DNA of 37,004 nucleotides from positions 1 through 37,004 of the forward strand of contig NZ_PEDL01000024.1 of NCBI RefSeq assembly GCF_002735925.1. The letters run 5' to 3'. Each line of letters begins with the position of its first letter. Within the stretch, counting starts at the first letter, position 1. Shown in pieces: positions 16,546 to 27,902 of the stretch. A model generated the notes under the pieces. The model had not been told where the DNA came from. It worked only from the letters and a program-made list of their open reading frames with translations, and did not search any database. The stretch comes from Sporanaerobium hydrogeniformans (GTDB lineage Bacteria > Bacillota > Clostridia > Lachnospirales > Cellulosilyticaceae). The position numbers were made by a program, and so were the translations under genes.

Positions 16546-17964
16546 TTAAACACGCTTAAAACGTACACCTTCTCTTGTGTCCTCGATGATTACTTTGTTA
16601 TCACTTAAAAACTGGCGAATAGCATCTGCTTTAGCAAAATCTTTTTCTTTTTTTGCTGCTGCACGTGCTTTGATATACTCTTGAATCTCTTCATCTGATA
16701 GACTGTTTGTATCGCTACTCTTGTTATCATAAAGTATACCCAAAATTCCTGTTAACTCATCAAAAAGGCTGTAGACCTCCTGAATAAAAGCCTTTGAAGC
16801 CCCCTCTTTGGCATAGCTGTTCGCAAATTTTACAAGTTCAAAAATGATACTAATAGCATCTGCTGTATTAAAGTCTTCTGACATAGCTTCATGGAAACGT
16901 CCTTTAAAGTTTGGCAGTTCTTTAAGTAGCTCTTCTTCTCCTGTTGTAAGCTCTAAGCTTATGGCATGCTCTAAAGCAAATTCTAAAGTTGTTTTTGCAT
17001 TTTTAATACGCTCTAAGCTATTTTTAGCTGCCTCCATCAGTTCTGGGCTAAAGTTAAGTGGACTTCTATAATGCGCACTGAGCATAAAAAAGCGTACTGT
17101 ATCATACCCAAAAGCTTCTCCTACTTCACGTAAAGTTTTAAAATTCCCCAAAGACTTAGACATTTTTTTATTATCAATATTTAAAAAACTGTTATGCATC
17201 CAATAATCAGAAAAAGGTGCTCCATTTGCTCCTTCACTTTGAGCAATTTCATTTTCATGGTGCGGAAAAACAAGATCTTCCCCGCCTGCATGAATATCTA
17301 TTGTATCCCCTAAATATTTCTTTGCCATAGCTGAGCATTCAATGTGCCAGCCTGGTCTTCCCTGGCCCCATGGACTTTCCCAGTAAGGCTCTCCTTCCTT
17401 TTTAGGCTTCCAAAGTACGAAGTCCATTTGATTCTTCTTACTATCTGTTAACTTCACACGTTCACTACGTCCTGCTTCTAGCTCTTCTAATACTTTTTTA
17501 GAGAGTTTACCATATGCATTAAAGGCTGCTGTATCATAATAAACTGTGCCACCTACCTCATATGCAAAACCTTTTGCAATCAACTTTTCAATCATTGCAA
17601 TAATAGAGCTCATTTCCTCCGTTACTCTTGGATGATGGGTAGCACGTGATACATTAAGGTTATCTGCATCTTTTAAGGTTTCTTCAATGTAGTAATTTAC
17701 AATTTCGTCTGTTGTTTTACCTTCTTCATTAGCTTTTTTAATAATTTTATCATCTACATCAGTGAAATTTTGTACGTAGTTTACCTTATAGCCCACACTT
17801 TCAAAATAGCGGCGTACTGTGTCAAATACAATATAAGGTCTTGCATTCCCAATATGAATAAGATTATAAACCGTAGGACCACATACATACATGCGTACTT
17901 TGCCTTCCTCAATCGGTTTAAATTCCTCTTTTTGCTTTGTTAACGTGTTGTAAATCTTAATCAT
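16546..17964 (-). CDS. cysS: Cysteinyl-tRNA synthetase
   Basis: 472 residues from ATG 17964, which overlaps the cysE stop as ATGA and follows AGGAGAG. It charges tRNA-Cys with cysteine. The zinc ligand C28 is in [10 protein letters not shown], followed by the HIGH-type motif H-I-G-N at 37-40; the second zinc cysteine is in H-I-E-C-S-A-M-A and the histidine ligand in F-P-H-H-E-N-E. K-M-S-K-S is at 267-271. Length and motifs are normal for the family. Coupling to cysE links cysteine synthesis with its use, under the upstream T-box. Confidence 0.96.
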
Positions 17965-18704
17965 TGGTTTTTTCTCTCCTCTTCTCTATACTCATTACAT
18001 ATTTTTTTATCCATACAGTCTTCATTGGTGCAATGATAAGCATGAGCCTTTTCTAAAGGTATACTTTTTTGTTTTTCTAAAAGAGCTAATTTTTCTTCTA
18101 GCGCTTCTAGCCTATTTTTAAGTCCACACATTTCCATCCGCGTAGGATCAGGCATCTTCACTTGGTCTAATTCACTACAAGGGTCTACTCTTTGTCCTTT
18201 CCGTTTAACCACTTTGCCCGGTATACCTACTACAGTACTATCTGTAGGTACTTCTTGAAGTACTACTGCATTAGCTGCTATTCTTGAATTATCACCAATT
18301 TTAAAAGGTCCTAGTACTTTTGCCCCTGTACTAATCATGACATTATTGCCAATAGTAGGATGTCTTTTGCCATGATCCTTACCGGTACCTCCTAAAGTTA
18401 CACCATGATAAATAGTCACATTATCACCTATTTCACAGGTTTCTCCAATCACTACACCCATGCCATGATCTATAAATAAACCTTTACCTATCACTGCTCC
18501 TGGGTGAATTTCTATCCCTGTTAATCCTCTTGCTAATTGTGAAATAAGTCGTGCTCCAAAAAAACGGTTTTTCTTATAAAGCCAATGACTCCATCTATGA
18601 AATAATAGTGCATAAAAACTTGGATATAAAAAAACTTCAGCACTGCATTTAATAGCAGGATCCCTTTCTTTAATAACGCGTATTTGCTCCTTTATATATC
18701 CCAT
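17961..18704 (-). CDS. cysE: Serine O-acetyltransferase
   Basis: 247 residues from ATG 18704, after AGGGGG. It makes O-acetylserine from serine and acetyl-CoA, the first step of cysteine synthesis. The N-terminal helices ([14 protein letters not shown]) are followed by left-handed beta-helix hexapeptide repeats with the active-site region [11 protein letters not shown] and [10 protein letters not shown]. After about residue 190 there is a coiled coil and then a tail with three or more cysteines ([13 protein letters not shown]), which the enzyme does not need and which could sense metal or redox state. It is the first gene of the operon and lies behind a cysteine T-box. Confidence 0.95.
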
Positions 18705-18733: not shown

Positions 18734-18960
18734 AACTCTGCCTCTCTTATCAGAGGCAAAGTTACTCGCGGTTCCACTCTGGTTAAAATAAGCCTAAACT
18801 TACTTCATCTCTACGCTCTTTAACGGAAGCTATCCGTGATGCACTACTTTTTTTCGCACATCCAACTCCAGAATGCACTTCTTAATTAAATACTATAAGA
18901 CTCTCCCACCTTATAAGTCTTTCTCTGAAATAGCACTTAATAATACTCTTTCCTTCATTG
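18734..18960 (-). promoter_or_regulatory. T-box leader with cysteine (TGC) specifier
   Basis: On the minus strand the T-box sequence AGAGTGGAACCGCG lies at 18767-18780. It is followed by a terminator stem (AGAGGC/GCCTCT core, 18734-18763) and a run of T. Upstream, in the Stem I region, G-A-A-G-TGC-A places a cysteine codon at 18875-18877 at the expected specifier position, and G-G-A-G follows. Uncharged tRNA-Cys should pair with the specifier and the T-box bulge, form the antiterminator and switch on cysE, cysS and the genes behind them. The structure is a translation-independent riboswitch on the leader RNA. Confidence 0.92.
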
Positions 18961-19070
18961 TCTTTTATCCTAATTAGTTTATCCTTATTCTATTTAATTT
19001 ATTTCTTGTTCTTATTTTATTCATTATAGTATATGATTCATTTGACTCATTTGTCATTCCTACTTCATTT

Positions 19071-21753: not shown

Positions 21754-22233
21754 TCATCTTTTAGATCGAATCTCCCCCTTGGCTTTCTCGCTAGTCTCAT
21801 CCTTATTGAGTCCTTGCTCCAGCCTTTTTACAACATAGTGCCCATATTCCCCTTCATAAAAAGCATATTCTCTAGCAATAGCATAAAAAGCACTATTATA
21901 CCCATATTTATTGACACAGCTATCGTCTCTTTTTATCCCCAGTTTATCACATATGTGTGCAAGCTTTGGTGTTGTTACAAAAGGCAATATAACGTTATAA
22001 GTATTTTGCTTACTTAAGAATTCCAAAATACGTGTCGTGTAGCCTAGGTTTGTATAACCTTCCTCTACTATAATTTGTCTAATCATGAGGGTCCCATCTT
22101 CCTCCTCCTCATAAATAAGTCTTAAATTTTCATTTATTATAAGCCCTGTTAACTTAAGTAAAAGCTTGCTCCTAGTAGGTATTTCCCTCACTGCAAAGCC
22201 TGCATTTTGCAATAAACTCATTAAATTGTTCAT
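21754..22233 (-). CDS. GNAT-like protein of unknown function
   Basis: 159 residues from ATG 22233, after AGAGGGGG. The middle reads I-R-Q-I-I-V-E-E-G-Y-T-N-L-G-Y-T-T-R-I-L-E-F-L, which resembles motif A of GNAT acetyltransferases (V-x-x-x-y-R-x-x-G-x-g-x-x-L). It is followed by a beta strand, then T-T-P-K-L-A-H-I-C-D-K-L-G-I-K like the C-terminal N-x-x-M-x-x-L-C-x-k-l-G-F segment. The acetyl-CoA loop glycines are partly lost, so it may be a degenerate or non-catalytic member. It lies 162 bp behind the large AAA+ gene on the same strand and may belong with it. Confidence 0.5.
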   Translation of the reverse strand: MNNLMSLLQNAGFAVREIPTRSKLLLKLTGLIINENLRLIYEEEEDGTLMIRQIIVEEGYTNLGYTTRILEFLSKQNTYNVILPFVTTPKLAHICDKLGIKRDDSCVNKYGYNSAFYAIAREYAFYEGEYGHYVVKRLEQGLNKDETSEKAKGEIRSKR

Positions 22234-22395: not shown

Positions 22396-25300
22396 TTACT
22401 GCATGTTTTTTTTAAGAAACTGCTTTTTACTACCTTCTATATCGTTTCTATTTATTACATTGATTTGTTTTTGATTTAACTTTTCATCCCAAACTCTTAT
22501 ACTTTGCTCTCTAATAAGGAAGTCTAGATACTGCTCAATCATAAGTCCATTTTTTAATTTTAATTCTAGAGTATTATCTATCTCAGCGATTGCCCTACTG
22601 AGACACTGTTCTGCTTCTTGAGTTAAAATATATCCTTTTTCTCTTAATATATTCAAAGCTATATCAAAGAGCTGCTCCTTATTATAGTCTTCAAAATCAA
22701 GCCAAATCGGGAATCTATAGCTTAAGGCAGGATGAGATAATACTAGATCTTTCATACCATGTTTTTGTCCAGATAGGATTACAAGAATTCTATTTTTATT
22801 TTTATCTATAAACTTTATGAGCTGTGAAATCATTTGATTTTCTCTTTCTTCTTGTATGCCCAAATCCCAATGATCGATAAACACTACTTTACCTAAGCAT
22901 TTATTAAAAACATCCTCTAAGCTTCCCGCCTGCTCTAATAACACTAGTAATTCACTTTTGTCTAGTTCTACAATCTTCTTAGCTTTTATAATCCCCATAC
23001 TATAAAGCATTTCTGATAGTATATTTAATACAGTTTTTTTCCCTGTTCCTTTTTCTCCTGTAAAAATGATATGGTTGTATTTATTTAAGTCACTACCTAT
23101 ACCTAGCTTTTTTCTTTTTTCCTTTACTTTAATAAGCTTGTACTGATTTCTTAAGAAGGTCTTTGCTGCTTCATTACCAACTAAAGGTTTTAACTTCTGC
23201 TCTAAGTCAAAGTTATTATCATATTCGGTGATATTAATCTTTTCTATATCCTTAATGGTTATCAGATTCATCTCATACTCACTAATATCTTCTTCTGCTA
23301 TTCTTATGCTTTGATTTCTAATGAGATTTTCAACATAATTTCTTACCATCCTACCATTTCCAGATTGTGCATCTGCATTTTCATAAATATCGACAAAACT
23401 CTTTTTAAGGGCTACATAAGCATTTTTAGAAAGCTTAAACCCATTAGCTTCAATCATTTTTATGGCCATGTCTAAAAGTTCATCAGGATTATAATCTTCG
23501 AAGTTAGTCCATAAGGGGAATCTAGATCTAAGACCCACATTAATATCAAAGAAGTCTTCCATCTCTTGCTCATAGCCAGCTAGTATAACGATAACTTCTT
23601 TTGAGTAGTCTTCGATAAGCTTAAGTAATGTCTCTACTGCTTCTCTTCCTAAGGAGTCATTTGCAAGGGTGTAGGCCTCATCAATAAACAAAATACCACC
23701 TATAGCTTCTTTAAACTTTTCTTCTGTCTTCTTGGCAGTTTCCCCTGGAATTTCTGATACAAAATGAGAACGATCCGTCTCGATTAATTGGCCCCCTTTT
23801 AAGAGGCCCATACTATTTAACATCTCAGCCACTACTCTTGCTATACTGGTTTTACCCGTTCCTGGATTGCCCACAAACACCATATTCAAATTTTGGTCTA
23901 CTTTAGTCTTTACACCTACAGATTTTCTTTTTTCCTGTGCCACAATTAACTTATATTGGCTTCTTAAAAGTTTTTTAACTTCTTCAAGCCCTATAATAGA
24001 TTCTAATTTCTTCTCTAAATCGAACTTTGTCTTAGCTTTAAAGTTAAAATTATCTCTCTCCAATAAGTCAATCTGTTTTTCGCTGTTTGCTAAATACTTT
24101 TTAGAAGCATCCATTATGGCATTCTCAATGATATTTCTTACAAACCTCGCGTTACCTAAGTCATTCTTACCCGTAAATTGATTTTTTGTAAATAAGCCTA
24201 TTAGCTCAGCTTTTACATTTTTAGCAATTTTATAACCCTTTGCTTTGGCAATATTAACAGCAATATCATACATTTCTACTGGACTATAGTCCTCAAAATG
24301 AATGCTATTAGGAAATCTAGATTTGAGTCCTTGATTAAAGCTTAAGAAATTTTCCATGTCTTTTTCATAACCTGCTAAAATGACAATTAAATTTTCTCTA
24401 TTATCTTCTATTCCCTTTAACAAGGCATTAACTATTTCTTTTCCAACCTTATCTTCTTCACTTTCACACAGAGAATAAGCTTCATCAATAAATAAAACAC
24501 CCCCTAATGCAGAGCTGATCACTTCATGGGTTCGCTTAGCTGTGTCATTTATATTTTCTGTAACAAAATCTGCTTTGCTTACCTCTTTTAAAATACCCTT
24601 AGACAATATTCCTAAAGCATTTAAATATTCAAAGGTAATTCTAGCAGCATTGGTTTTTCCTGTACCTGCATTACCTGTAAAAATCATATTCATAGACATA
24701 TATGAAGTAGGAAGTCCTAGTCTCTGTCTTATTTGCTGCACCTTGTAATTGTTTTCAATATTGACAATAAAATTTTTGAGCTGCCTCATCCCTATTACAG
24801 TATCTAATTTGTACTTTGCTTCTTCAAGGGTTGGTATTAAATACTCACTTAAATTCAAATGACTCCCATTATATTTGCAAAAAATGTCATTCTCCTCTAC
24901 ATATATAAGTATTTTCTCTTTCTCTTTAATGTTTTCTTTTGTTATAAGGTTAATGATTGGTTTATAAAGCTTATAGGAAATATATTCTCTTACATCAAAA
25001 TAAGTACTTTCTCTAAAGTTTTCTCTTAAGAATACAAAAAGTCCAAAATCGTTTTCTTCCCTTTGATTGTTTTCCATATCCCATAAAATCTTTATACCCA
25101 ATTCCTCTTGTATTTTGCTTAGAGTCTTAAAAATTTCTTTTTTCATAATAATATATTTTTCTTGTTCAGTTAAACTTTTTGTATATAAGGTTTTATCTTT
25201 ATCCTTAAATATATCCACTATAGTTGGGTTCATTCCTGCATCTTTTTCATGATTATAAGTAAATATAAAAAATTTGTTATGGCAAATAAATTCTTTAATC

Positions 25301-25782
25301 TTATATTCATTGTTTACTTTGTCATCGGCTTCTACTAAAAAGTTATTTTTAATAACATATTCATTATTTAGTATTAAACACGTATTAGGATAAAGTTTAG
25401 ATACTAACGTTAGGATTTTTTCACTAGCCTGCTCAATATTTTTGAAAAGAATAGCTGTAGAGCTATTATTAAGCTTTTCATACAAATCTGTTAAAAATGC
25501 CTCATAACCCAAATTAAAGTTATAAGAAGAAAGATCGATTTCTTCTAAGCCAACTTGATCTACTAGTCCTTCCTCTTTAAGCTGTTTAAAAAGTAATCTT
25601 ATACTTAACTTCTTAAAGGTCCCCCCCTCTCCCATTAAAAGTAATGCACCCTTTTCATCTTTTAAAATCTTCCCTTTAAAATAATCACATAGTTCTTGAA
25701 CAAAACGCTCTTGTCCTACTAATTCTTCATTTAATTTCTTTTGTATATTTATCAATCTATTTTGTATTTCTTGTTCTTTCAT
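22396..25782 (-). CDS. Giant AAA+ ATPase with four tandem modules, CbxX/SpoVK-like
   Basis: 1128 residues from ATG 25782. The last three modules are CbxX/CfqX-type and repeat every ~270 residues. Module 2 has G-N-A-G-T-G-K-T near 367-375 and L-F-I-D-E-A-Y; module 3 has G-N-P-G-T-G-K-T near 635-643 and L-F-I-D-E-A-Y. Both have L-A-G-Y and a sensor with S-R-F-P. Module 4 keeps G-E-K-G-T-G-K-K near 905 but its Walker B is F-I-D-H-W-D, losing the glutamate. The first ~300 residues look like a worn ClpB-D2-like module: V-G-Q-E-R, then M-G-E-G-G-T-F-K-K without the P-loop lysine-threonine, then I-L-F-K-N-I-E-Q-A. So two modules look active and two degenerate. SpoVK and CbbX remodel proteins; the target here is unknown. 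The ribosome binding site is weak. Confidence 0.8.
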   Translation of the reverse strand: MKEQEIQNRLINIQKKLNEELVGQERFVQELCDYFKGKILKDEKGALLLMGEGGTFKKLSIRLLFKQLKEEGLVDQVGLEEIDLSSYNFNLGYEAFLTDLYEKLNNSSTAILFKNIEQASEKILTLVSKLYPNTCLILNNEYVIKNNFLVEADDKVNNEYKIKEFICHNKFFIFTYNHEKDAGMNPTIVDIFKDKDKTLYTKSLTEQEKYIIMKKEIFKTLSKIQEELGIKILWDMENNQREENDFGLFVFLRENFRESTYFDVREYISYKLYKPIINLITKENIKEKEKILIYVEENDIFCKYNGSHLNLSEYLIPTLEEAKYKLDTVIGMRQLKNFIVNIENNYKVQQIRQRLGLPTSYMSMNMIFTGNAGTGKTNAARITFEYLNALGILSKGILKEVSKADFVTENINDTAKRTHEVISSALGGVLFIDEAYSLCESEEDKVGKEIVNALLKGIEDNRENLIVILAGYEKDMENFLSFNQGLKSRFPNSIHFEDYSPVEMYDIAVNIAKAKGYKIAKNVKAELIGLFTKNQFTGKNDLGNARFVRNIIENAIMDASKKYLANSEKQIDLLERDNFNFKAKTKFDLEKKLESIIGLEEVKKLLRSQYKLIVAQEKRKSVGVKTKVDQNLNMVFVGNPGTGKTSIARVVAEMLNSMGLLKGGQLIETDRSHFVSEIPGETAKKTEEKFKEAIGGILFIDEAYTLANDSLGREAVETLLKLIEDYSKEVIVILAGYEQEMEDFFDINVGLRSRFPLWTNFEDYNPDELLDMAIKMIEANGFKLSKNAYVALKKSFVDIYENADAQSGNGRMVRNYVENLIRNQSIRIAEEDISEYEMNLITIKDIEKINITEYDNNFDLEQKLKPLVGNEAAKTFLRNQYKLIKVKEKRKKLGIGSDLNKYNHIIFTGEKGTGKKTVLNILSEMLYSMGIIKAKKIVELDKSELLVLLEQAGSLEDVFNKCLGKVVFIDHWDLGIQEERENQMISQLIKFIDKNKNRILVILSGQKHGMKDLVLSHPALSYRFPIWLDFEDYNKEQLFDIALNILREKGYILTQEAEQCLSRAIAEIDNTLELKLKNGLMIEQYLDFLIREQSIRVWDEKLNQKQINVINRNDIEGSKKQFLKKNMQ

Positions 25783-26031: not shown

Positions 26032-26304
26032 CTATGCTTCTATATGACGCACATTTTGTATAACGGTATGAACTGCTTCTGTTGTAACTGTAATCAATTT
26101 AACACGTGCACTTGCATCTAGCATTTCTAGTTTAGTAAAAGCTTCTCCCTCTAATGAGGTTACATATTTAGCCGGTAAGAGGTTAAGAGCATATGCATAC
26201 ATATCTCTTTTACACTGTGGACATTTACAACACTCATAGCGCTTTAATACCTCATCTAATTGCTTCTTTACTAGATGCTCCATGTAATTATATACACCAT
26301 CCAT
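26032..26304 (-). CDS. comFB: ComFB-family late competence protein
   Basis: 90 residues from ATG 26304, with AAGGAG 6 nt upstream. It has the ComFB layout: N-Y-M-E-H-L-V-K-K-Q-L-D-E-V-L, a four-cysteine cluster C-C-K-C-P-Q-C (25, 26, 28, 31) likely to bind zinc, then R-D-M-Y-A-Y-A-L-N-L-L-P-A-K-Y-V-T. In Bacillus comFB sits in the comF operon but is not needed for transformation; in cyanobacteria related proteins bind cyclic nucleotides. Here it follows murI by 43 bp and is not near other competence genes, so a competence role is not supported by context. Confidence 0.85.
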   Translation of the reverse strand: MDGVYNYMEHLVKKQLDEVLKRYECCKCPQCKRDMYAYALNLLPAKYVTSLEGEAFTKLEMLDASARVKLITVTTEAVHTVIQNVRHIEA

Positions 26305-27246: not shown

Positions 27247-27251
27247 AGCCA

Positions 27252-27324
<73 letters not shown>

Positions 27325-27351
27325 AAATATAATATGTATAAGGTATACAAG

Positions 27352-27424
27352 AGCGCGAGACGGGACTCGAACCCGCGACCCTCTCCTTGGCAAGGAGATG
27401 CTCTACCAACTGAGCCACTCGCGC
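27352..27424 (-). tRNA. tRNA-Gly (anticodon GCC)
   Basis: Acceptor GCGCGAG with CTCGCGC, anticodon stem CTCCT/AGGAG around TTGCCAA (GCC), T-arm GCGGG/CCCGT with TTCGAGT. Discriminator is U; CCA is not encoded. Confidence 0.95.
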
Positions 27425-27488
27425 CTAAACTACCTACTTAGTATAGCTTATTTATTGTCTCATGTCAATCTTTTTTAGTAGTTAAAGA

Positions 27489-27561
27489 TGAGCCACCCGG
27501 GAATCGAACCCGGGACAACTTGATTAAAAGTCAAGTGCTCTACCGACTGAGCTAGTGACCC
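27489..27561 (-). tRNA. tRNA-Lys (anticodon TTT)
   Basis: Anticodon stem CTTGA/TCAAG around CTTTTAA (TTT), T-arm CCGGG/CCCGG. The acceptor GGGTCAC/GTGGCTC includes two G-U pairs, at positions 2 and 4, which is unusual but pairable. CCA is not encoded. Confidence 0.93.
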
Positions 27562-27578
27562 ATAGAATAAATAACCAG

Positions 27579-27653
27579 TCGGGGTGACAGGACTCGAACC
27601 TGCGGCCTCCTGAACCCAAATCAGGCGCTCTAGCCAAACTGAGCCACACCCCG
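27579..27653 (-). tRNA. tRNA-Pro (anticodon TGG)
   Basis: Acceptor CGGGGTG with CACCCCG, anticodon stem CCTGA/TCAGG around TTTGGGT (TGG), T-arm GCAGG/CCTGT. Discriminator A, no encoded CCA. Confidence 0.95.
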
Positions 27654-27673
27654 TTAAGAGCTATTCATTCTAA

Positions 27674-27745
27674 TGACCCATAGGAGAATCGAACTCCTGT
27701 TACCGCCGTGAAAGGGCGGTGTCTTAACCGCTTGACCAATGGGCC
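27674..27745 (-). tRNA. tRNA-Glu (anticodon TTC)
   Basis: Acceptor GGCCCAT with ATGGGTC (one G-U), anticodon stem CCGCC/GGCGG around CTTTCAC (TTC), T-arm AGGAG/CTCCT. Discriminator A. It is the first tRNA after the 5S gene. Confidence 0.95.
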
Positions 27746-27755
27746 TTACATAACT

Positions 27756-27870
27756 CTGGCAGCCACCTACTCTCCCAGCTCGTCTCCAAGCAAGTACCAT
27801 CGGCCGCTTAGGTCTTAACCGACGTGTTCGGTATGGGAACGGGTGTTTCCCCTAAGCGCATCACCACCAG
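27756..27870 (-). rRNA. rrf: 5S ribosomal RNA
   Basis: On the minus strand the gene starts CTGGTGGTGATGCGCTTAGG and ends with the complementary CTGCCAG; the middle has the universal CCGAACACG loop and C-C-C-A-T-A-C-C. Length is about 115 nt. No 23S or 16S gene lies upstream; instead there is a promoter 33-60 bp away. It heads an operon of five tRNAs. Confidence 0.95.
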
Positions 27871-27902
27871 AAATTTGTCGTTTATTGCTTACGACTTTTA
27901 CA

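Follow-up and report, generated by a model that had tools for sequence, protein, structure and literature searches.

A four-module SpoVK-type AAA+ protein of Clostridia with two complete and two incomplete ATPase sites and no pore-loop aromatic in its SpoVK modules

Why should a bacterial protein carry four AAA+ modules on one chain when only two of them keep a complete ATPase site? This question is raised by an open reading frame (ORF) of Sporanaerobium hydrogeniformans (Bacillota; Clostridia; Lachnospirales; Cellulosilyticaceae), found in a 37,004-nucleotide stretch of contig NZ_PEDL01000024.1, assembly GCF_002735925.1 (the whole stretch is hereafter called the window). AAA+ machines are mostly understood as threading hexamers, and an aromatic-x-Gly pore loop 1 is the motif of threading AAA+ unfoldases. 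The protein described here belongs to a branch in which the pore aromatic is gone from every SpoVK module and exactly two ATP sites are still complete.

Domain make-up and catalytic state of the four modules

The protein and its modules are located as follows:

22396..25782, minus strand: whole single ORF with an ATG start, encoding the four-module AAA+ protein (P0001) of 1128 amino acids (aa)
24856..25782, minus strand: module 1, residues 1-309, ClpB-D2-like pseudo-ATPase, assigned from the hidden Markov model (HMM) range, the fold and weak profile matches to Clp-type ORFs
24067..24831, minus strand: module 2, residues 318-572, SpoVK-type with intact ATPase motifs
23239..24027, minus strand: module 3, residues 586-848, SpoVK-type with intact ATPase motifs and a CbbX fold (Z 25.9)
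22450..23217, minus strand: module 4, residues 856-1111, SpoVK-type pseudo-ATPase, perhaps a copy of module 3

The preliminary description of this DNA, made from the sequence alone, had proposed three SpoVK/CbxX modules at intervals of about 270 residues behind a ClpB-D2-like module. This layout was borne out: the three P-loops lie at residues 370, 638 and 909, with spacings of 268 and 271 residues, and the protein matches three stretches each of the Pfam family PF00004 (AAA), together with AAA_lid_6, and of the NCBIfam SpoVK model TIGR02881. The similarity is not due to chance, because PF00004 is matched at E=1.2e-43 and orthologues occur at 53-69%, 73% and 79% identity. Among solved structures, CbbX and EccA1 come nearest in sequence.

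It should be noted that the SpoVK label itself would be an artefact of summing. The three stretches add up to a score of 606.5, above the SpoVK cut-off, but each module alone scores below the TIGR02881 cut-off of 422.95 (259, 240 and 136 bits in a genome search per module). Likewise, the EccA model TIGR03922 reaches 477.2 against a cut-off of 466.65 as a sum over three stretches, of which the best covers positions 268-532 of 557 in the model, its AAA+ half. The CbbX cut-off (TIGR02880, 459.25) is not reached even by the sum of 430.7 bits. Pipelines may hence annotate such proteins as SpoVK or EccA merely by adding up sub-threshold modules.

Conservation was assessed in 17 window-type sequences: the window itself, 11 related loci from Clostridium, Romboutsia and Dethiosulfatibacter (53-69% identity), L034 (79%) and L035 (73%) from another family of the same order, L158, L159, and a remnant in genome G018 (L036). 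L157, on the same contig as L013, was excluded from the counts. The ORF is complete in 13 of the 17; L018 and L020 are cut by contig ends, L017 has a C-terminal frame break, and the G018 remnant is broken, holding part of module 3 and module 4 (L036, 8898-9953).

Modules 2 and 3 retain the full catalytic set (Walker A, Walker B, GY, arginine finger and sensor 2) in 15/15 and 16/16 window-type orthologues, respectively, and module 4 in 0/17. The GY signature at sensor 1, a trait of the SpoVK-CbbX-EccA clade, shows the same distribution (15/15, 16/16 and 0/17). The clade Asn and the sensor-2 Arg are each kept in 15/15 sequences for module 2 and 17/17 for module 3. The published spacing puts the finger four residues upstream; here the fourth residue is Lys in module 2 and Arg in module 3, and the Arg regarded as the finger is the sixth. 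The module 2 finger is kept in 15/15.

The degenerate motifs of modules 1 and 4 are:

25609..25632, minus strand: module 1 degenerate P-loop G-E-G-G-T-F-K-K, residues 51-58, Gly51 and Lys57 kept
25438..25446, minus strand: module 1 dead Walker B, F-K-N in place of h-D-E, residues 113-115
23035..23058, minus strand: module 4 P-loop G-E-K-G-T-G-K-K, residues 909-916, Thr-8 replaced by Lys
22870..22884, minus strand: module 4 Walker B, Glu replaced by His, residues 967-971
22714..22716, minus strand: module 4 arginine finger Arg1023, kept in 17/17

In module 4 the two glycines and the lysine of the P-loop persist in 17/17 sequences and Thr-8 in none; the Walker B Asp is present in 11/17 and the Glu in 1/17, while sensor-1 Tyr (0/17) and sensor-2 Arg (0/16) are gone. 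In module 1, Gly51 and Lys57 are kept in 14/14, Gly-6 is replaced by F, A or S and Thr-8 by K (14/14), and both Walker B acids are lost (the first to K, S or T, the second to N; 14/14). The Mg-binding Thr is thus Lys in 14/14 sequences of module 1 and 13/17 of module 4. A further dead module with this replacement was observed at L042 (8117-10993), a tandem SpoVK protein in which the first module has G-Q-R-G-S-G-K-K and lacks the Walker B acids. These counts agree with the earlier claims that modules 2 and 3 keep P-loop and Walker B and that module 4 has lost its Walker B glutamate (missing in 16/17). The claim that module 1 has lost its P-loop lysine was mistaken, since that residue is invariant and the flanking Gly and Thr and the Walker B acids are lost instead.

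Module 1 is an AAA+ module of the Clp second-domain kind, as judged from three lines of evidence. First, in a full-length AlphaFold2 (AF2) model (mean predicted local distance difference test score, pLDDT, 76.8; predicted TM-score, pTM, 0.42), module 1 matches nucleotide-binding domain 2 (NBD2) of ClpA, ClpB, ClpC, Hsp104 and Skd3 among the matches shown (Z 17.9-20.7 over 255-276 residues). Residues 1-310 thus model as a Clp NBD2-like AAA+ fold, and the case of a first 300 residues without such a fold, named in the preliminary description as one that would speak against it, did not arise. Second, profile A2, built from 13 relatives, weakly matches ORFs of 764-879 aa in 20 genomes; three of these were identified, with ClpB as best NCBIfam match, below cut-off as the locus truncates the ORF. 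The match in L138 (E 1.9e-14), for example, lies at the C-terminal end of a ClpB-like ORF. Third, module 1 of a sister protein matches AAA_2 (E 8.2e-8). A single-sequence Pfam search with residues 1-317 gave nothing above the cut-off.

Pore loops, sister family and selection

The aromatic-x-Gly that follows strand 2 in the SpoVK clade, which we take to be pore loop 1, is absent from all 48 window-type SpoVK modules (module 2, 0/15; module 3, 0/16; module 4, 0/17). By comparison, it is kept in 28/28 modules of the sister family (27 with Tyr and one with His, scored as aromatic) and in 17/19 single or other SpoVK modules. In the window the corresponding regions are:

24538..24576, minus strand: module 2 pore-loop region, residues 403-415, aromatic-x-Gly lost
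23734..23772, minus strand: module 3 pore-loop region, residues 671-683, with I-P-G (Ile in place of the aromatic, Gly kept)

The Gly of the module 3 loop is retained in 14/16 sequences, and 12/16 have Ile, Val or Leu-x-Gly. The Clp-type pore motif G-Y/F-V/I-G was not found in the N-terminal part of the 9 window-type and sister proteins checked. The loss of the pore aromatic is, on these alignments, the most distinctive trait of the clade.

The sister family comprises 11 proteins (L037-L039, L041 and L160-L166), in which an N-terminal extension and a ClpB-D2-like pseudo-module are followed by one (L041, L165), two (L038, L039), three (L037, L161-L164, L166) or four (L160) SpoVK modules. In L166 module 1 went unrecognised in the HMM scan, though profile A2 matches part of its length. 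The sister SpoVK modules are catalytically complete in 28/28 cases. Hence, homologues with intact sites throughout, which the preliminary description had named as evidence against its reading, do occur as far as the SpoVK modules of this family are concerned, but not for its ClpB-like module. In four aligned sister proteins (L037, L038, L039 and L041) the Clp-like Walker B reads F-E-N or F-K-N, and L039 still has a complete P-loop there. Because the Walker B is dead in all four, module 1 was probably inactive before the window-type and sister lineages split.

A module tree of 83 rows was reconstructed, with L017_S3, L036frag, L040, L042, L052 and L053 excluded. Window-type module 2 and the first sister SpoVK module cluster together (support 100/99). 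Modules 3 and 4 are jointly set apart (98/88) and group with the middle modules of the sister family (100/99). This topology suggests that module 4 arose by copying of module 3, but its stem is long (1.38) and the placement may be an artefact. Genome G657 encodes both types (L158, window-type; L162, sister).

In 8 of the 11 sister loci (L037-L039, L160-L164) two conserved small genes lie downstream. The sister operon thus consists of the tandem SpoVK ATPase, a hydrophobic membrane-type protein of ~150 aa, and a protein of ~220 aa that contains a single apparent membrane helix and the conserved stretch W-D-Y-A-x-E-D-x-D-Y-V; in L037, L160 and L161 a gene for a DUF4236 protein lies upstream. The two small proteins of L161 have no Pfam or NCBIfam match. 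The second of these genes (membrane-type, A5) was considered as a partner of the window protein and rejected: 13 of the 14 window-type genomes lack a match to it, and the sole exception, G657, also has a sister-type gene. Elsewhere, a NERD nuclease-related domain is fused to a single SpoVK module (L043, 7429-9828).

Window-type proteins form a separate clade that, in the genomes searched, is patchily distributed in Clostridia. Within the window's own family a module 1 match was found in the window genome alone (1/24 genomes). In the order, 12/295 genomes have a whole-protein match (E<=1e-60): G000, G043 and G056 are window-type, G018 holds the remnant, and the other eight encode related tandem or single SpoVK proteins. 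G018 is the only other genome of the window's family among the matches listed in this search. In the class, module 1 was matched in 31/391 genomes (E<=1e-8), of which 11 (E<=1e-18) are window-type or sister and 20 are weak. In the phylum, 3/398 genomes gave a match (E<=1e-25). A mobile or viral setting was rejected: tblastn against plasmid and phage records gave 268 plasmid and 11 phage matches, all below 60% identity and none to a window-type member, and among the ORFs scanned at 77 IMG/VR loci there was no module 1 match and no window-type member.

The four modules evolve at different rates. Invariant columns number 41/310, 108/255, 143/263 and 30/257 in modules 1 to 4, and tree lengths estimated from 13 of the 17 window-type sequences are 6.0, 2.0, 1.5 and 5.2, i.e. 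the rate of modules 1 and 4 is 2.6-4.1 times that of modules 2 and 3. The ratio of nonsynonymous to synonymous substitution rates (dN/dS), taken from three close pairs, amounts to 0.08-0.25 in module 1, 0.10-0.13 in module 4 and 0.02-0.08 in modules 2 and 3 (the window-L034 pair is near synonymous saturation). Since these values lie at 0.08-0.25 for modules 1 and 4, both are under purifying selection, and they look like maintained pseudo-ATPases. The earlier picture of two live and two worn-out sites is therefore half right: two complete and two incomplete sites are found across the clade, but "worn-out" is misleading for modules conserved in this way.

Assembly, gene neighbourhood and competing explanations

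We tentatively favour the explanation that this member of the SpoVK/CbbX/EccA clade is a dedicated remodelling ATPase that stands alone, is built in tiers and probably does not thread. The live SpoVK-type modules 2 and 3 would supply the power, and modules 1 and 4, without hydrolysis, would have been retained for a structural role as caps or docking surfaces, possibly with ATP clamped in them. Most likely the chain would form a homo-oligomer in which the modules are stacked as tiers, like those of p97 or NSF, some of the tiers being inactive. The usual hand-over-hand pulling of a polypeptide through the pore is probably lacking, because modules 2-4 have lost the pore aromatic and a Clp-type G-Y/F-V/I-G was not found in module 1. 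Instead, one client might be remodelled or released by ATP-driven movement of the rings. We infer the stacking, the non-threading action and the single dedicated client from several kinds of evidence. The available text of PMC10659427 describes characterised members of the clade as dedicated chaperones with narrow targets.

The structural evidence comes from an AF2 model of modules 3-4 (pLDDT 83.0, pTM 0.50), with module placement judged from VIA-align rows. Module 3 of this model matches CbbX (Z 26.4), and modules 3-4 together align with the stacked D1-D2 domains of Cdc48, p97, NSF, NVL and DRG1 over 447-479 residues (Z 17.6-18.8). The root-mean-square deviation (rmsd) of the two-module rows is 6.9-9.7 in most, with four at about 13.4. 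For placement, the Foldseek alignments to dynein and RNF213 were discarded, as their rmsd of 32-36 makes them meaningless. Stacked tiers are thus slightly favoured by the model. The suggestion of a pseudo-hexamer built from few chains is neither confirmed nor excluded by it, the resemblance being closer to stacked D1-D2 pairs at a poor fit. In addition, the number of SpoVK modules in sister proteins varies between one and four, a variation that tiers or beads would tolerate more easily than a closed ring of six modules. According to the available portions of PMC4047620 and PMC7311170, arginine fingers act on the site of a neighbour; if the rings are stacked, this would account for the fingers of the two live modules, and Arg1023 in module 4 would have the task of stabilising bound ATP.

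The gene neighbourhood is consistent with a protein acting on its own. No neighbour recurs across genera in the 17 window-type loci, except for components of ABC transporters (shared by the window and L036, and by L018, L034 and sister loci), which are taken as generic paralogues. Two neighbour genes are common to L034 and L035 alone, which belong to the same genus, and two downstream genes to both Dethiosulfatibacter loci. Across the 11 loci of the window type that were examined, 93-331 bp separate the gene from its upstream neighbour. The downstream neighbour lies on the opposite strand in six of 10 loci and on the same strand in four, with gaps of 162 bp (window), 64 bp (L019), 299 bp (L034) and 142 bp (L035). 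The upstream methyltransferase (PF13679) was rejected as a partner, being present in five Clostridium loci (L012, L014-L017), largely as shared synteny, and at no other locus compared. The gene behind the target, proposed earlier as a candidate partner, is:

21754-22233, same strand as the target: GNAT-like gene, 159 aa, 162 bp downstream of the target

This candidate was also dropped. It has no match in Pfam, NCBIfam, PHROG or PADLOC, its PDB matches are at chance level, it matches only itself in its own genome, and no ORF at the 27 other window-type and sister loci compared is related to it (E<=1e-8).

Several points weigh against a tiered, non-threading, stand-alone ATPase. Loss of the aromatic does not prove that threading is lost; some threading AAA+ rings use aliphatic pore loops, and the aliphatic-x-Gly in 12/16 module 3 loops may preserve some grip. 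The pTM values (0.42 for the full-length model and 0.50 for modules 3-4) leave the placement of the modules unsure, and an rmsd of 7-8 is a loose fit. The strictly kept finger of module 4 suits a lateral interface between modules 3 and 4 at least as well. Finally, with gaps of 64-331 bp, transcription could still read through from a neighbouring gene.

A possible, if doubtful, alternative is that the modules of one chain lie side by side in a lateral ring like that of dynein, Rea1 and RNF213. Site 2 would then be completed by the module 3 finger and site 3 by that of module 4, and two chains, each contributing modules 2-3-4, would close a ring of six modules, leaving module 1 outside it. This arrangement would account for the retention of Arg1023 in 17/17 sequences of a fast-evolving module with just 30/257 invariant columns, and the loss of the pore aromatic suits a ring that does not thread. 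It also has a parallel in RNF213, where the available part of PMC7311170 reports two competent modules and a non-catalytic one holding ATP as "molecular glue". However, the AF2 model of modules 3-4 resembles stacked D1-D2 pairs (at low confidence), the finger of module 2 is equally conserved (15/15) yet would serve a dead site, and sister proteins have one, two, three or four SpoVK modules, of which four does not divide six. A bolder form, which we regard as unlikely, would make the protein the bacterial equivalent of RNF213 and dynein, namely a concatenated engine of two chains that does not thread, with two ATP sites, a finger for site 3 provided by dead module 4, and a Clp-type docking platform. 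Under that reading, the Thr-to-Lys replacement in both dead modules would be convergent nucleotide binding without hydrolysis.

A role in sporulation is quite improbable. Here the protein would replace SpoVK, activating MurG or another spore-envelope enzyme at the forespore. The summed NCBIfam score passes the SpoVK cut-off, spoIVA was found in 11/12 window-type genomes tested (one of them, G018, having the target remnant alone), and the window's own genome has no other match to the SpoVK model over 33 bits. The SpoVK equivalog is described as restricted to sporulating Firmicutes, and in B. subtilis SpoVK activates MurG, whose dedicated chaperone it is (available text of PMC10659427). Several observations are, however, difficult to reconcile with such a role. 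No single module reaches the cut-off of 423, and Dethiosulfatibacter (L019) encodes the protein without a match to spoIVA. Since many Clostridia form spores, co-occurrence with spoIVA is weak evidence. Furthermore, no enrichment of sigma-E/K/F/G-like sites was found in 14 upstream regions; sigma-A-like sites occur in 6/14 regions, compared with 2.1 in shuffled sequences and a value this high in 1 of 200 shuffles, which hints weakly at expression in vegetative cells. Scanning the region for promoters in general gave 24, a number at the level of chance (22.9 expected).

An IetA-like ATPase in anti-phage defence is very improbable: IetA is indeed the best PADLOC match (43.7 bits, and 101 bits for a sister protein), but the match spans AAA+ motifs only, and there is no recurrent partner gene at the loci (the neighbours at other loci were not scanned for defence genes). 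That the gene is decaying, with modules 1 and 4 as relics on their way out, is scarcely credible in spite of their faster evolution and the broken remnant in G018 of the same family, given dN/dS values of 0.08-0.25 and complete ORFs in 13/17 sequences.

Other features of the window were noted. A ComFB-domain protein (PF10719, E 2.6e-21) is encoded at 26032-26304 on the minus strand, 249 bp upstream of the target. Five tRNA genes are clustered with a 5S rRNA (27251-27871, minus strand) upstream of a glutamate-racemase-like gene, the ComFB gene and the target. A T-box leader (18749-18967, minus strand) precedes a serine-acetyltransferase-like gene (17961-18704) and then a cysteinyl-tRNA-synthetase-like gene, these names being taken from sequence reading.

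Comparison with known systems

The literature search found no paper describing such a four-module protein without the pore aromatic; the tree figure and supplement of PMC10659427, which may hold tandem forms, fell outside its coverage. The nearest known relatives are single-module members of the clade. SpoVK (TIGR02881) shares the SpoVK-type AAA+ core and AAA_lid_6, with the GY sensor 1 and arginine finger found in window modules 2 and 3, but has one module instead of four; the window protein differs further in lacking the pore aromatic and in its N-terminal ClpB-like module. CbbX, the red-type Rubisco activase (3syk, 3syl, 3zuh), resembles module 3 in fold (3syk, Z 25.9, rmsd 4.8, 270 residues), but is also a single-module protein, and the summed score of the window protein stays below its cut-off. 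EccA of Type VII secretion (TIGR03922; 9lur) belongs to the same clade and its cut-off is passed by the summed score, but the best stretch covers the AAA+ half and EccA does not share the four modules with a ClpB-like N-terminal one.

Tandem arrangements are also known. The sister family has the same order of a ClpB-D2-like pseudo-module and SpoVK modules, but differs from the window type in its variable number of SpoVK modules, all complete and with the pore motif, and in the two small downstream genes at 8/11 loci. The available part of PMC11090510 reports tandem SpoVK ATPases with one inactive module in CoCoNuT systems. A two-module AAA+ protein of defence operons, with a C-terminal leucine-rich repeat and beta-barrel, has tandem modules of which one has lost Walker A/B, whereas the window protein has four modules and no fixed operon. 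p97/Cdc48 and NSF are stacked two-tier AAA+ proteins with which modules 3-4 align over 447-479 residues in the AF2 model, but they have two modules and a different N-terminal part. NSF also has an inactive tier.

Rea1, dynein and RNF213 are treated as a special subclass of concatenated AAA+ proteins in the accessible text of PMC11603028. As far as the available portions of this paper, PMC7311170 and PMC4047620 describe them, they share with the window protein the concatenation of modules and, in RNF213, a small number of competent modules with the others kept without hydrolysis, but they are eukaryotic, have six modules per chain rather than four, and carry large extra domains. By analogy, RNF213 shows that two competent modules and one non-hydrolysing, ATP-holding module can be a working design. 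The window-type and sister proteins add to these systems a natural series of one to four SpoVK modules within one family. They also make two questions directly testable: in what way an AAA+ chaperone might function if it does not thread conventionally, and what purpose its dead modules serve.

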